Shown here: positions 2,091 to 5,850 of the stretch, piece by piece
Position numbering within the stretch: the first letter of the stretch is position 1
Layout of the letters: each line of letters begins with the position of its first letter
Source: an archaeon
Lineage (GTDB): Archaea > Hydrothermarchaeota > Hydrothermarchaeia > JALTZZ01 > JALUTC01
DNA length: 5,850 nucleotides
Assembly (NCBI GenBank): GCA_027051265.1
Contig: JALTZH010000035.1
Coordinates: 1 to 5,850 of the forward strand
Direction of reading: 5' to 3'
Position numbers and translations under genes: made by a program
The notes under the pieces: generated by a model
Told to the model about the DNA's origin: nothing
What the model saw: only the letters and a program-made list of their open reading frames with translations
Database searches by the model: none

Positions 2091-3487
2091 TGTGTGGAAT
2101 TGTTGGTATTTATTCAAAAAATAAAAACGTTTCATACTTAATATATTATGCGTTGTTAACACTTCAACATCGTGGACAGGAATCATGTGGCATCGTAACA
2201 AGAACAGAAAATGGTTTTAAAATTTATAAAGGAATGGGGTTGGTTACAAGTGTATTCCATAAGGGGATATTAAACAGTTTAGATGGTTACGTAGGAATAG
2301 GACATACGAGATATTCAACGACAGGTAAAAGTTCTATCGAGAATTCACAACCAATAATGTTAAACTTTTCATTAGGTAAACTAGCTATAGTTCATAATGG
2401 AAATATTGCCAACGCTTATCTTCTCAGAAAAGAATTAGAAGAAAAAGGACAAGTATTTTTAACAACAACAGATACTGAAATAATAGCTCATTTAATAATA
2501 AAAAATTATATTGAAGAAAAAGATATTGTTGAAGCTATAAAAAGAGCATCAAATATCCTAATAGGATCATATTCGTTAATTATTTTAACCGATGAATTCC
2601 TGATTGGTGTTCGAGATCCGTATGGTATAAGACCTTTATGTCTTGGAATGGATAACGATACAATAATATTAGCTTCAGAAAATGTTGTATTCGATGTTTT
2701 AGATAAAAACTTCATTAGAGATATAAGACCTGGAGAAATCTTCGTAATTGATAAGGATGGAAATTATTACAGTTATTACTTGAATAAAAAGAGGAACGCG
2801 TTTTGTGCCTTTGAATACATATACTTTGCTAGAGCTGATGCAATGATAAATGGCATCTCCGTTTATAAAGTTAGAGAAAAACTTGGAGAAATAATGGCAA
2901 GAAAAGATACGGTTATTGCTGATTTCGTATCACCTGTACCAGATTCTGCAATACCTTATGCAATAGGTTATTCGAATTACAGGGGAATTCCTTATAGAGA
3001 AAGTCTTATAAGGAATAGATATGTTGGAAGAACATTTATAATGCCTAAACATTCTGAAAGAAAAATTGCTGTAAGATTGAAATTGAATCCTATAGCACAT
3101 GAAATAAAGGATAAAAGGATAATACTTGTCGATGATAGTATCGTTCGTGGAACAACTTCTAGAAGAATAATAAACATGTTAAAAAGGGCAGGTGCGAAAG
3201 AAGTACATTATAGAGTATGTTCTCCAATGATTATATCTCCATGTTTACTAGGAATAGATATGCCAACAAAAGAAGAATTGATTGCAAGTAATAAAACCGT
3301 TGAAGAAATTAGAAGAGAAATAAACGCTGACTCTTTGATGTATTTAACCGTAGATGAACTGGTTGAAGGAATTGGATTAAGTAAAGAGGAATTATGTTTA
3401 GGTTGCTTTACGGGAAAATATCCAATAGATGAACTTGAAAGTATCATTAAACTCATACCAAAAGATATATTTCTATACAACAAATAG
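2090..3487 (+). CDS. purF: Amidophosphoribosyltransferase PurF
   Basis: PurF catalyses the first committed step of purine synthesis, turning PRPP and glutamine into phosphoribosylamine in the cytoplasm. The 465-residue protein begins MCGIVGIY, so Cys2 is the N-terminal nucleophile of the class II glutaminase domain and no propeptide is needed. LQHRGQES (25-32), GHTRYSTTG (71-79), VHNGNIAN (101-108) and RDPYGIRPL (175-183) complete that domain. The PRPP loop VDDSIVRGTT is at 347-356. Cys239, Cys385, Cys436 and Cys439 (LCLGC) align with the four [4Fe-4S] ligands known from the Bacillus subtilis enzyme, so a structural iron-sulfur cluster is expected. A tail of about 19 residues after GKYPID is longer than I would expect and is the part overlapping the next gene. 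The start shares a base with the L37e stop. The overlapping junctions place it in the operon. Confidence 0.97.
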   Translation: MCGIVGIYSKNKNVSYLIYYALLTLQHRGQESCGIVTRTENGFKIYKGMGLVTSVFHKGILNSLDGYVGIGHTRYSTTGKSSIENSQPIMLNFSLGKLAIVHNGNIANAYLLRKELEEKGQVFLTTTDTEIIAHLIIKNYIEEKDIVEAIKRASNILIGSYSLIILTDEFLIGVRDPYGIRPLCLGMDNDTIILASENVVFDVLDKNFIRDIRPGEIFVIDKDGNYYSYYLNKKRNAFCAFEYIYFARADAMINGISVYKVREKLGEIMARKDTVIADFVSPVPDSAIPYAIGYSNYRGIPYRESLIRNRYVGRTFIMPKHSERKIAVRLKLNPIAHEIKDKRIILVDDSIVRGTTSRRIINMLKRAGAKEVHYRVCSPMIISPCLLGIDMPTKEELIASNKTVEEIRREINADSLMYLTVDELVEGIGLSKEELCLGCFTGKYPIDELESIIKLIPKDIFLYNK

Positions 3488-4022
3488 TTTTAAACTTAAA
3501 GTTGCAAAACATATTTTTAAAGATTTAGCTTTAGATATAGTAATGGTTAAAAAGAAACTAAAAGAATTACAAACCATGAATATTCTGGAGAATGTTAAAT
3601 TTAAACTGAAACAGGTTGATAAATTACCAGCAATCGTTGAAGATTCGGGACTCTTCATAAAGAATCTTAGAGGATTTCCAGGGACGATTACTAAATACGT
3701 TCTTAAAACAATAGGATTTAGTGGTATTCAAATGTTGCTAAAAGATGATACGTTTTCATATTTTATATCAGTAGTCGGTTATAAAGATTTAGAACTTGAA
3801 AAATATTTCATAGGAAAAGTTACTGGTATGTTAAAGAAAAATCAGAAAAGTATTGATGAAGCCTTTATTCCTACAGGAAGTAATAAGAGTTTTGCAGAAA
3901 TGAATTTAGAAGAATTTGTAAAATATTCTGATATAGGAAGATCTCTTACAAAACTTAAACGCTTCTTAGTTCAAATTTATAAGTTACAATGTTGCGATGA
4001 GGAAAGATTTGTAGAGCAATGA
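3429..4022 (+). CDS. Divergent HAM1/RdgB-type non-canonical purine NTP pyrophosphatase with replaced C-terminus
   Basis: HAM1/RdgB enzymes hydrolyse dITP, XTP and ITP to monophosphates, keeping deaminated purines out of nucleic acids. The core KIYFYTTNSFKLK (12-24, family T-x-N-x2-K), AIVEDSGLFIKNLRGFPG (68-85, catalytic EDSGL), AFIPTGSNKSFAEM (145-158) and KLKRFL (175-180) identify the family. It is divergent: the G-F/W-G-Y/F-D segment before FIP is missing and the usual S-H-R nucleotide-contacting motif reads YSDIGR (166-171), so activity or specificity may differ. The ATG at 3429 overlaps purF by 59 nt without a Shine-Dalgarno sequence; TTG at 3435 is an alternative, and the first strand starts only at residue 12. 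The last 12 residues (LQCCDEERFVEQ) are not family-like. A second copy of the gene end at 5123-5266 instead closes with a short RIYKNG tail. The native stop was therefore probably lost here by rearrangement. Confidence 0.85.
   Translation: MNLKVSLNSYQKIYFYTTNSFKLKVAKHIFKDLALDIVMVKKKLKELQTMNILENVKFKLKQVDKLPAIVEDSGLFIKNLRGFPGTITKYVLKTIGFSGIQMLLKDDTFSYFISVVGYKDLELEKYFIGKVTGMLKKNQKSIDEAFIPTGSNKSFAEMNLEEFVKYSDIGRSLTKLKRFLVQIYKLQCCDEERFVEQ
3861..3982 (+). repeat. Direct repeat copy 1 (HAM1 3' end)
   Basis: This 122-bp stretch matches 5135-5256 at a constant offset of 1274 bp with only two differences (3863 C versus G; 3973 A versus G), and 3864-3972 is an exact 109-bp match. It encodes HAM1 residues 145 to 185. 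The two copies bracket the MNT/HEPN module. Immediately after 3982 the copies part. Confidence 0.95.
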
Positions 4023-4040
4023 GGAGCGAAACGTTTATAA
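4011..4040 (+). promoter_or_regulatory. Promoter-like element conserved with 5364-5392
   Basis: GCGAAACG followed by TTTATAA (4034-4040) looks like an archaeal BRE plus TATA box and would start RNA about 25 nt later, near 4060. The 29 bases 4011-4039 match 5364-5392 at 25 positions, including the whole AAACGTTTATA core. In this copy it lies over and just after the stop of the HAM1 gene. The transcript would run through 4060-4390 towards the MNT/HEPN pair; whether it does so is inference. Confidence 0.5.
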
Positions 4041-4114
4041 CTGTTAATTACTTCGTTGCAAGTTCAAAAAACAATTATAGGAAGCAATAGGAAAAGTTAC
4101 GTCATTCTTAAAAC

Positions 4115-4336
4115 GTGTCGCAGAAATATATTCTTTCGAATTGTAACGGAGTAAAACCTTCCAATTTGTTTACGATTTCATATCTTAGTTCCCATCAAAA
4201 GCAATATGATCGAAAGTATGAAAGTTCGTTGGATATAAGCAAAGAAGATACGTCATGCATCCGAAACGAAGAGAAGATATACTCTTTGATAAAAATTATA
4301 GGAACTATAGCATATGTTACTTTTGATGGGAACTAA
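4115..4336 (+). CDS. Doubtful small ORF of 73 codons
   Basis: A GTG-started frame (MSQKYILSNCNGVKPSNLF at the N-terminus) fills the gap between the HAM1 gene and the MNT gene. I recognise no domain, signal peptide or membrane segment. It has no Shine-Dalgarno sequence, and its second half coincides with a segment bounded by 18-bp inverted repeats; its stop codon lies inside the right arm. It is serine- and asparagine-rich, unlike the neighbouring genes. It is more likely rearranged non-coding DNA than a gene. A small promoter-proximal peptide of the toxin-antitoxin locus cannot be excluded. Confidence 0.2.
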   Translation: MSQKYILSNCNGVKPSNLFTISYLSSHQKQYDRKYESSLDISKEDTSCIRNEEKIYSLIKIIGTIAYVTFDGN

Positions 4337-4337
4337 G
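4184..4337. repeat. 154-bp segment bounded by perfect 18-bp inverted repeats
   Basis: CTTAGTTCCCATCAAAAG at 4184-4201 recurs exactly as its reverse complement at 4320-4337, and the similarity continues inward in gapped form (CAATATG against TAACATATG). The arms enclose 118 bp. This is the shape of a miniature inverted-repeat element, but I see no clear target-site duplication (flanks TTTCATAT and GTAAAATT). As RNA it could form an 18-bp stem with a long loop just upstream of the MNT promoter. Confidence 0.75.
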
Positions 4338-4348
4338 GTAAAATTAAA

Positions 4349-4356
4349 CTTATAAT
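4349..4356 (+). promoter_or_regulatory. Candidate TATA box of the MNT/HEPN operon
   Basis: CTTATAAT lies about 40 nt before the MNT ATG, which predicts initiation near 4378 and a leader of about 14 nt. The MNT gene has no Shine-Dalgarno sequence, which fits such a short leader. The A-rich AAATTAAA just upstream could act as the BRE. Confidence 0.45.
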
Positions 4357-4392
4357 GGAAAATTTTCAAATGTTAGAAAAAATATATTTTCC
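4357..4392. promoter_or_regulatory. Inverted repeat at the MNT promoter, candidate operator
   Basis: GGAAAAT (4357-4363) and ATTTTCC (4386-4392) form an inverted repeat with a 22-bp spacer between the TATA box and the ATG. The left arm overlaps the palindrome GAAAATTTTC (4358-4367). Toxin-antitoxin operons are often self-repressed at such sites, but in sequence this AT-rich, chance pairing is possible. Confidence 0.3.
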
Positions 4393-4716
4393 ATGAAAGA
4401 AAAATTAAATCTGATTAAGGAGATCATACTAAACATTGCAAAAAAACATAACATAGAGATAGATAGGATCATTCTATTTGGCTCAAGGGCGAGAGGAGAT
4501 TACAGAGAAGATTCCGATTGGGACATATTAATAGTTACGAAGGAAAAGATTGGTTGGAAGAAGAGAAAGATATTTTTGGGGGATATCTTAAAAATTTTTG
4601 CAAAGATTAAGATTAGAGTGGAAATATTAATAGTAGATCTGGAAACTCTAAATGAATATGGAAAATGGTGGGGCTTTGTGCATTACCATGCCGTAAATGA
4701 AGGAGTAAAAATATGA
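4393..4716 (+). CDS. MNT-domain minimal nucleotidyltransferase (antitoxin partner)
   Basis: The protein is a 107-residue single-domain member of the polymerase-beta-type nucleotidyltransferase superfamily. The signature ILFGSRARGDYREDSDWD (27-44) carries GSRARG and the SDWD metal-binding pair Asp42/Asp44; the third acid is probably Glu77 in RVEILIV (75-81), where many family members have Asp. MNT proteins paired with HEPN proteins act as antitoxins, in studied cases by adding AMP to a residue of the HEPN toxin. Its stop overlaps the HEPN start as ATGA, which is the standard arrangement. The gene has its own candidate TATA box and no Shine-Dalgarno sequence. Its richer use of G and of Trp/Gly codons than the purF-side operon, and its place between duplicated HAM1 ends, suggest acquisition. 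Domain identity is firm; the biochemical role is by family analogy. Confidence 0.9.
   Translation: MKEKLNLIKEIILNIAKKHNIEIDRIILFGSRARGDYREDSDWDILIVTKEKIGWKKRKIFLGDILKIFAKIKIRVEILIVDLETLNEYGKWWGFVHYHAVNEGVKI
4701..4705 (+). promoter_or_regulatory. Ribosome binding site of the HEPN gene
   Basis: AGGAG sits 7 nt before the HEPN ATG at 4713, inside the last codons of the MNT gene. It decides the start and, with the ATGA overlap, indicates coupled synthesis of the two partners. Confidence 0.65.
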
Positions 4717-5093
4717 GGAAAGATGTCGAAGAATTTCTTAAATCTGCAGAAGAAGATTTATCAGCCGCAAAAGAATTATTGGAAACTAAAAAGTATAGAA
4801 TTACCGTTTTTCATTGCCATCAAGCCGTTGAAAAATGTTTAAAAGCTTACTTATTAGAGAAATCTGGTAAATATCTATTTACTCATTCGATATATGAGCT
4901 GATAGAATTGGCTACGGAGTTGGATGCGGATTTCGAATATCTGTTTGATATAAATGCTCAGGCATTGGAGGAATACTATACTGGAGCAAGATATCCGCCA
5001 TTACTAAAAGTCTCGGAAGAAGAGGCTAAAGAAGCTGTTGAGATAGCTGAGAAAGCCAGAGATTTTATTTTGAGAAAGATTAAATTGAAATAA
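4713..5093 (+). CDS. HEPN-domain protein (toxin partner of the MNT/HEPN pair)
   Basis: This 126-residue, all-helical protein matches the classic HEPN domain (Pfam PF05168 type). It has an N-terminal helix with EEFLKSAEEDLSAAKELLE, the core YRITVFHCHQAVEKCLKAYL (28-47), THSIYELIELATEL (57-70), and YYTGARYPPL (88-97) with the conserved A-R-Y-P. HEPN proteins in such pairs are ribonuclease-like toxins; RITVFH (Arg29 to His34) has Rx4H spacing, but I cannot tell whether it is the catalytic Rx4-6H motif. It overlaps the MNT gene by 4 nt with AGGAG upstream, so the pair is one translational unit. The length is normal and the gene looks intact. The pair resembles type VII toxin-antitoxin systems; a role in mobile-element maintenance or phage defence is inference. 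The gene is followed 30 bp later by the start of the broken HAM1 copy. Confidence 0.9.
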   Translation: MRKDVEEFLKSAEEDLSAAKELLETKKYRITVFHCHQAVEKCLKAYLLEKSGKYLFTHSIYELIELATELDADFEYLFDINAQALEEYYTGARYPPLLKVSEEEAKEAVEIAEKARDFILRKIKLK

Positions 5094-5100
5094 TAACTCC

Positions 5101-5109
5101 TTTATAAAA
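5101..5109 (+). promoter_or_regulatory. TATA-like box before the second HAM1 copy
   Basis: TTTATAAAA lies just after the HEPN gene and 26 bp before the HAM1 fragment. It could start RNA near 5130, but that transcript would have only a broken gene to express. It may be a leftover or a chance A/T run. Confidence 0.25.
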
Positions 5110-5122
5110 GATGACTGTGTAG

Positions 5123-5266
5123 GTAGATGATATTGCGTTTATTCCTACAGGAAGTAATAAGAGTTTTGCAGAAATGAATTTAGAAGAATTTGTAAAATAT
5201 TCTGATATAGGAAGATCTCTTACAAAACTTAAACGCTTCTTAGTTCGAATTTATAAAAATGGATAA
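5123..5266 (+). pseudogene. HAM1/RdgB C-terminal fragment (second copy)
   Basis: An open stretch of 47 codons, starting after TAG at 5120-5122 and ending at TAA 5264-5266, repeats the last part of the HAM1 protein: AFIPTGSNKSFAEM, then YSDIGRS and KLKRFLVRIYKNG. The first 40 codons match the upstream gene almost perfectly at DNA level. Nothing equivalent to the N-terminal two thirds, including EDSGL, is present, so it cannot encode an enzyme; an internal ATG could give about 30 residues. It ends soon after KRFL, as HAM1 proteins normally do, so it may preserve the original 3' end of the upstream gene. Before the shared part it reads VDDIAFIP against SIDEAFIP upstream, a codon longer after GAT-GA, so the boundary may be slightly further left than base identity shows. 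Confidence 0.85.
5135..5256 (+). repeat. Direct repeat copy 2 (HAM1 3' end)
   Basis: This is the partner of 3861-3982, with two mismatches over 122 bp (5137 G and 5247 G). After 5256 this copy carries about 53 bp (5257-5309) that are absent from copy 1, including the stop codon and a palindrome. Weaker similarity to the sequence after copy 1 then resumes at 5308. Confidence 0.95.
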
Positions 5267-5291: not shown

Positions 5292-5307
5292 AGATATCTA
5301 ATAAAGT

Positions 5308-5392
5308 AAGTTACAGTATTGCTAAGGAAGTTCCGTTCTTCAGGATGAAAATGAATTGGAGAGGTAGAGCAACGATGAACAAAACGTTTATA
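5308..5392 (+). repeat. Second copy of the post-HAM1 module with promoter-like core
   Basis: AAGTTACAGTATTGC and AGGAAG (5308-5330) match 3981-4006 with a few changes and small gaps, and 5364-5392 matches 4011-4039 at 25 of 29 bases, ending in AAACGTTTATA. Between them this copy has about 28 more bases than copy 1, including a weak hairpin, CGTTC-TTCA-GGATG. The TATA-like core would start RNA near 5415, facing only the IS605-like scar. Confidence 0.6.
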
Positions 5393-5441
5393 TGATAAGA
5401 TTGTTCAAATATCTCGCTTACGGTATAGGTTTTCTAATCCA

Positions 5442-5590
5442 AATTGATGACAATGTAGACTTAGAGAAGCTGAGAGAAGAGGCTTTAAGAACCGGCTGAA
5501 ATAAAAGCCAATATAGGTCGAATGTCTGTGATATCCTTAGAAGCATAAGCTTCCCCGTTTAGAATCCTTGCACTTTAGAGTGGGGAAAAG
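5442..5590 (+). mobile_element. Degenerate IS200/IS605-family right end (TnpB/omega-RNA-like scar)
   Basis: The core GAATCCTTGCACTTTAGAGT (5562-5581), followed by GGGGAAAAG, resembles the right-end hairpin of IS605-type elements, which I recall as GAATC-stem-CTTTAG-stem-GG, as in ISDra2. CACT-TTAG-AGTG (5571-5582) forms the inner stem, and CTTCCCC (5550-5556) can pair with GGGGAAAAG. In such elements this sequence is also the 3' scaffold of the TnpB guide RNA. Upstream, one frame reads EPAEIKANIGRMSVISLEA before a stop at 5546-5548 and another reads DLEKLREEALRTG, which could be a frameshifted TnpB tail; that part is weak. No intact tnpB or tnpA is present, so this would be a dead remnant. 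The left boundary is a guess. Confidence 0.5.
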
Positions 5591-5616
5591 GTCGATGTAA
5601 GAAATATTCTCGCAAT

Positions 5617-5817: not shown

Positions 5818-5850
5818 TTGTTTCTTATACACATCTGACGCTGCCGACGA
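5818..5850. other. Illumina Nextera (Tn5) adapter sequence at the contig end
   Basis: The last 33 bases match the reverse complement of the Nextera read-1 transposase adapter at 31 positions. The differences are T for C at 5818 and 5822. The 28 bases 5823-5850 match exactly: the end of the Tn5 mosaic end (TCTTATACACATCT) followed by GACGCTGCCGACGA, stopping at the last adapter base. This is library artefact, not genome. Confidence 0.95.

Follow-up and report, generated by a model that had tools for sequence, protein, structure and literature searches.

The DNA analysed here, referred to as the window, is one whole contig of 5850 bp (C35) of a 1.46-Mb archaeal genome assembled from metagenomic short reads (G000). 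Its genes follow the order cbiB (minus strand), HisA/HisF-like, LSm, L37e, purF and HAM1-like, after which comes a region of repeats and a two-gene cassette. Two other genomes recur in the comparisons, a relative of the same genus (G001) and a genome of another family in the same order (G002). The features on which the analysis is built are the following:

3429-4022, plus strand: HAM1-like gene, a divergent paralog (PF01725, 1.2e-20), its protein ending, after 3982, in a new tail of 12 residues
3861-3982, plus strand: HAM1-like 3' end, copy 1, inside the gene
3983-4039, plus strand: IS200/IS605 (TnpB) left-end remnant, directly after copy 1 (86% identical over 29 nt to 5364-5392)
about 4184-4340, no strand assigned: MITE-like element with 27-nt terminal inverted repeats (4181-4207 and 4314-4340)
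4386-5132 (end approximate), plus strand: horizontally shared segment, made of MNT, HEPN and 39 bp downstream (92% identical to G002)
4393-4716, plus strand: MNT, minimal nucleotidyltransferase, presumed antitoxin (PF18765, 6e-13; PF01909, 2e-10; motif GSX10DXD)
4713-5093, plus strand: HEPN, presumed toxin (PF05168, 2.7e-29; no RX4-6H motif, RYP conserved)
5135-5256, plus strand: HAM1-like 3' end, copy 2, an orphan with no full gene, its frame open to a stop at 5264-5266
5307-5605, plus strand: decayed IS200/IS605-type element (left end 5307-5392; TnpB-type 3' region and right end about 5430-5601)
5823-5850, plus strand: Nextera adapter read-through, an artefact (28-nt exact adapter match at the contig end)

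Nextera adapter sequence was likewise left at the end of a contig from another genome of the class (G014:C54).

A HAM1-like gene end present twice

It had been noticed earlier that 122 bp of the 3' end of a HAM1 gene stand twice in this DNA, 1274 bp apart and with two mismatches. A repeat search and a base-by-base comparison confirmed it: 3861-3982 and 5135-5256 are identical at 120 of 122 positions with a start-to-start offset of 1274, and they differ only at 3863 (C/G, synonymous) and 3973 (A/G, Q/R). The pair scored E = 1.7e-55 in a blastn search inside its own genome, which rules out a chance origin. Weaker identity between the copies extends back to a TGAT (3854-3857 and 5128-5131), and downstream of 3982 and of 5256 they are wholly divergent. 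A likeness to HAM1 (VDDIAF) in the stretch upstream of 5135 was rejected, since these bases belong to the cassette's 3' flank, which G002 shares.

The reading frame of copy 1 runs on after IYK with the 12-residue tail LQCCDEERFVEQ, and copy 2 terminates as IYKNG*. In an alignment of C-termini, the tail length of copy 2 is near that of the relatives, whose proteins stop within a few residues of the point reached by copy 2. With tail length as the one criterion, copy 2 is probably the native gene end and copy 1 the one with a replaced tail, as had been proposed.

The assignment of the host gene to HAM1 held at the level of the family, but the gene is a divergent paralog. In fact, in the purF-adjacent protein S-D replaces the S-H-R of HAM1, as it does in G001 and in four other genomes of the class, and a canonical HAM1 with SHR sits on another contig (C99) of the same genome. 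The G001 orthologue is 52% identical. With a canonical copy present elsewhere, the purF-adjacent protein may be a distinct nucleotide-cleaning paralog.

Mobile-element remnants and the MNT/HEPN cassette

The cargo between the two copies was first described as a toxin-antitoxin pair only; instead, the insert also carries the IS605 left-end remnant at 3983-4039 and the MITE-like element. Members of the same left-end family lie on contigs C116, C256 and C54, and the left-end motif was also recognised by eye on C52, where a TnpB gene starts. The MITE has copies on C34 and C48 of this genome and on C139 of G001, and its hairpin has z = -5.45. The decayed element at 5307-5605 starts 50 bp after copy 2; it is placed in the IS200/IS605 type by its left end, shared with the dispersed copies on C116, C256 and C54, together with its right end, which is 76% identical to a stretch of C12 that there follows a TnpB C-terminal remnant (by eye). 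In Sulfolobus islandicus, degenerate IS elements have been reported on either side of vapBC and HEPN-NT pairs (PMC3718332). Our locus is like those in having a toxin-antitoxin-type pair amid decayed IS and MITE sequence, with truncated HEPN copies, but differs in being flanked, left and right, by copies of a 122-bp piece of the neighbouring gene as well.

Both domains of the MNT/HEPN pair, already recognised between the repeats, were confirmed by Pfam, and the two genes overlap by 4 bp (4713-4716). The GSX10DXD motif of the MNT reads GSRARGDYREDSDWD in translation, and the protein scores under the NCBIfam MntA cut-off (37.9 of 60 bits). The HEPN reads RYPPLLKVS, with no H at +5 to +7, and its archaeal relatives are alike in the alignment. 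With a PF05168 HEPN devoid of RX4HXY beside a PF01909 MNT carrying GSX10DXD, the pair is, by its domains and motifs, a Class II HEPN/MNT module as defined in PMC7641770, where it is stated that the toxin-antitoxin function still needs validation; the RX4HXY of type VII HepT/MntA toxins is absent from this HEPN. The likeness to the archaeal Class II modules of that study extends to the overlapping two-gene operon and to the several copies per genome; the proteins are no different, and only the setting between duplicated gene ends is. PADLOC returned no match for the HEPN, and for the MNT only the candidate class PDC-S09. Since a Class II HEPN lacks RX4HXY, the toxicity of the pair and the self-stabilisation that had been ascribed to the insertion are unproven.

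The shared segment matches G002 in two places (C149:32340-33030 and C56:1-183), with unrelated flanks on both sides. As the two genomes share just 64% identity in purF, against 92% in the cassette DNA, the cassette moved horizontally; in G002 it has another location, next to what by eye is a SulP-type transporter gene. The dN/dS values against G002 were 0.36 for the MNT and 0.19 for the HEPN, so that, for part of that history at least, selection constrained the two proteins. The homology with G002 ends at about 5132-5133, where copy 2 begins, and at this right junction TGAT occurs in both copies and in the G002 flank. Viral contigs searched with the HEPN and MNT proteins gave no relatives, and plasmids gave none.

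In G002 itself, the HEPN copy on C149 has a stop at codon 17, and the HEPN 3' end is followed by one right flank on contig C56 and another on C77; in this other family the same cassette has decayed or been rearranged.

The corresponding region of G001 (JALUTC010000219.1) keeps L37e, purF and HAM1 in the same order; it has a single HAM1-like end and lacks the cassette. Absent from a genome of the same genus and 92% identical in another family, the module was acquired, and to this extent the earlier note is supported. Of the empty site that the note had called for, G001 shows the single HAM1 end, but the downstream genes differ: porG and RLI follow HAM1 in G001 and both lie on C244, beside a histone gene, in G000, so that G001 was rejected as a clean empty site. 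This comparison was made at the level of proteins and gene order with one same-genus genome whose downstream synteny is not shared; G001 and G002 are both distant, and the relatives hold no strain-level empty site.

Origin of the arrangement

We favour, with moderate confidence, the horizontal acquisition of the cassette into a hotspot of rearrangement, the HAM1-like end having been duplicated through recombination that was either illegitimate or homologous and one-sided. The Class II cassette would have landed in an IS605/MITE-rich spot just after the HAM1-like gene, and the joining-in of the segment would have duplicated the last 122-129 bp of this gene by illegitimate recombination, either through template switching at short homologies or through one-sided homologous recombination. 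Copy 2 would probably keep the native tail, the gene containing copy 1 would take its new terminal residues from the IS remnant, and the repeats would be a scar, not attachment sites. As for the function, the MNT presumably nucleotidylates the HEPN, keeping it harmless.

The choice of these recombination routes follows from what the window does not contain. Its ORF list includes no integrase, bearing out what had been reported; no tRNA and no Rfam match were found in it, nor any att-like core or terminal repeats, the terminal inverted repeats of the insert being not above those of shuffles. Because an integrase, an att-like core and terminal repeats are all missing, illegitimate or one-sided homologous recombination is favoured. 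The scar reading is also supported by the coincidence of the cassette's right border with the beginning of copy 2 and by a comparable joint on C52, where a relE-like ORF start and a vapC 3' end meet at a GAAAAAGCG that both contain; against it, the microhomology, compared at the right junction, is a weak one of four bases, G001 and G002 are distant, and a gene-conversion tract could equally account for near-identity that is confined to the HAM1 part. The rearrangement is real and probably recent. It resembles the scars that genomes ordinarily bear around mobile DNA, and not a new kind of integrating element; the integrative-element and self-stabilising readings of the earlier note exceed the evidence.

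A single crossover of the Campbell type would start from a circle or fragment of a strain having the cassette already beside a HAM1 end, recombining through that end. The geometry is exactly the one expected, the copies are near-identical over 122 bp and the cassette is mobile between families; nevertheless, we consider this origin unlikely, as no donor locus with HAM1 adjoining the cassette was found among 41 genomes searched with the locus DNA, and the known donor-side flank, that of G002, is without HAM1 sequence.

We regard as improbable a tandem duplication of the gene end together with the downstream IS region, later opened by the MITE and the cassette, with gene conversion homogenising the HAM1 ends. 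In its favour, TAAGTTACA and an IS605-type left end follow both copies in the same orientation. However, the HAM1 ends differ at 2 of 122 positions (1.6%), against 6 of 45 (~13%) plus large gaps for the adjoining IS left ends (Fisher p = 0.005); the gene-end duplication thus postdates the IS ends or is an event apart from them, and the two were not simply co-duplicated. Moreover, the IS family is dispersed in the genome, and therefore its two occurrences need no duplication.

A chimera, produced by the assembly or by a mixture of strains in the metagenome, might be suspected in a short-read assembly with adapter read-through at the end of this very contig, and with a repeat beside a scaffold gap on another one (C40). 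We hold it very improbable: there is no N anywhere in the window, and the assembler worked with k = 127, as read off the exact 127-bp overlaps between contigs of the assembly. The longest exact stretch within the HAM1-end repeat is 109 bp, shorter than k, so that ordinary reads should bridge each copy, the assembler could separate them, and a collapsed-repeat artefact is unlikely.

Least probable of all is the site-specific integration of a small element that targeted the 3' end of the gene, carried a replacement end and has since lost its integrase: the order of hybrid gene, cargo and orphan end, with the gene end replaced, the native end displaced and direct repeats at both borders, is like that of integrase-type elements, and in archaea the 3'-distal parts of protein-coding genes are known integration targets (PMC6563490), but the hallmarks sought in the window (integrase, att core, tRNA, terminal repeats) are missing, the cargo genes are only two, the 122-bp repeat is far longer than the generally short att sites (up to 69 bp in archaea; PMC6563490), and the insert is a patchwork ending within an IS remnant and a cassette flank.

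Other repeat-flanked toxin-antitoxin loci in the genome

Direct repeats of at least 32 bp and at least 90% identity, lying 300-4000 bp apart, were searched for in 833 kb of G000 (104 contigs or pieces), and nine pairs were found on eight contigs. On C34, 57 exact bases covering the promoter and start of nadX are repeated (6288-6344 and 7169-7225), and enclose the following genes, all named by eye:

6419-6892, minus strand: PIN-type toxin
6889-7137, minus strand: UPF0175-type antitoxin

G001 was rejected as an empty site for this locus, since aroE has different neighbours there. On C52, a ParE/RelE-like pair and an IS605-type right end stand between two copies of 291 bp of a vapC end. This contig was rejected as a simple parallel to the HAM1 locus; its orphan copy is the start of a relE-like gene fused to a 96% copy of the vapC 3' end (1767-2102 and 3237-3701). 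The repeats on C74 and C152 were set aside as the 5' regions of paralogous secreted-protein genes, and those on C191 and C32 as tandem vapBC-type paralogues.

As PIN domains (PF01850) have only nine matches in the genome, two or three repeats enclosing toxin-antitoxin genes seem above expectation, in a tiny sample from a search that was seeded by one case and had no control count. Two further repeat-flanked loci of this kind in about 0.83 Mb make a recurring process possible, not established. More specifically, the lineage might repeatedly gain small toxin-antitoxin cassettes through a replicative process, or one coupled to repair, in which neither integrase nor transposase takes part and tens to hundreds of bases from the adjoining gene come to flank the module on both sides as recombinogenic repeats; we put this forward as a speculation with little chance of being right. 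If the arrangement recurs, it would offer a concrete and datable signature of the entry of such cassettes into archaeal chromosomes without a recombinase of their own, and a natural test of deletion resistance, as 122-bp repeats should recombine out unless this is selected against. Taken as a single case, the HAM1-like locus is a well-resolved scar of cassette acquisition at an IS-rich breakpoint.

Two of the scanned contigs showed minor peculiarities. The repeat on C40 (4158-4291), one of the nine pairs, comprises 124 exact bp and reaches a 10-N scaffold gap; it was set aside as probably a scaffolding artefact. On C191 (5433-6794), two vapBC pairs stand in tandem, with the promoter and the first 34 residues of VapB nearly the same, unrelated VapB C-termini and different VapC partners.
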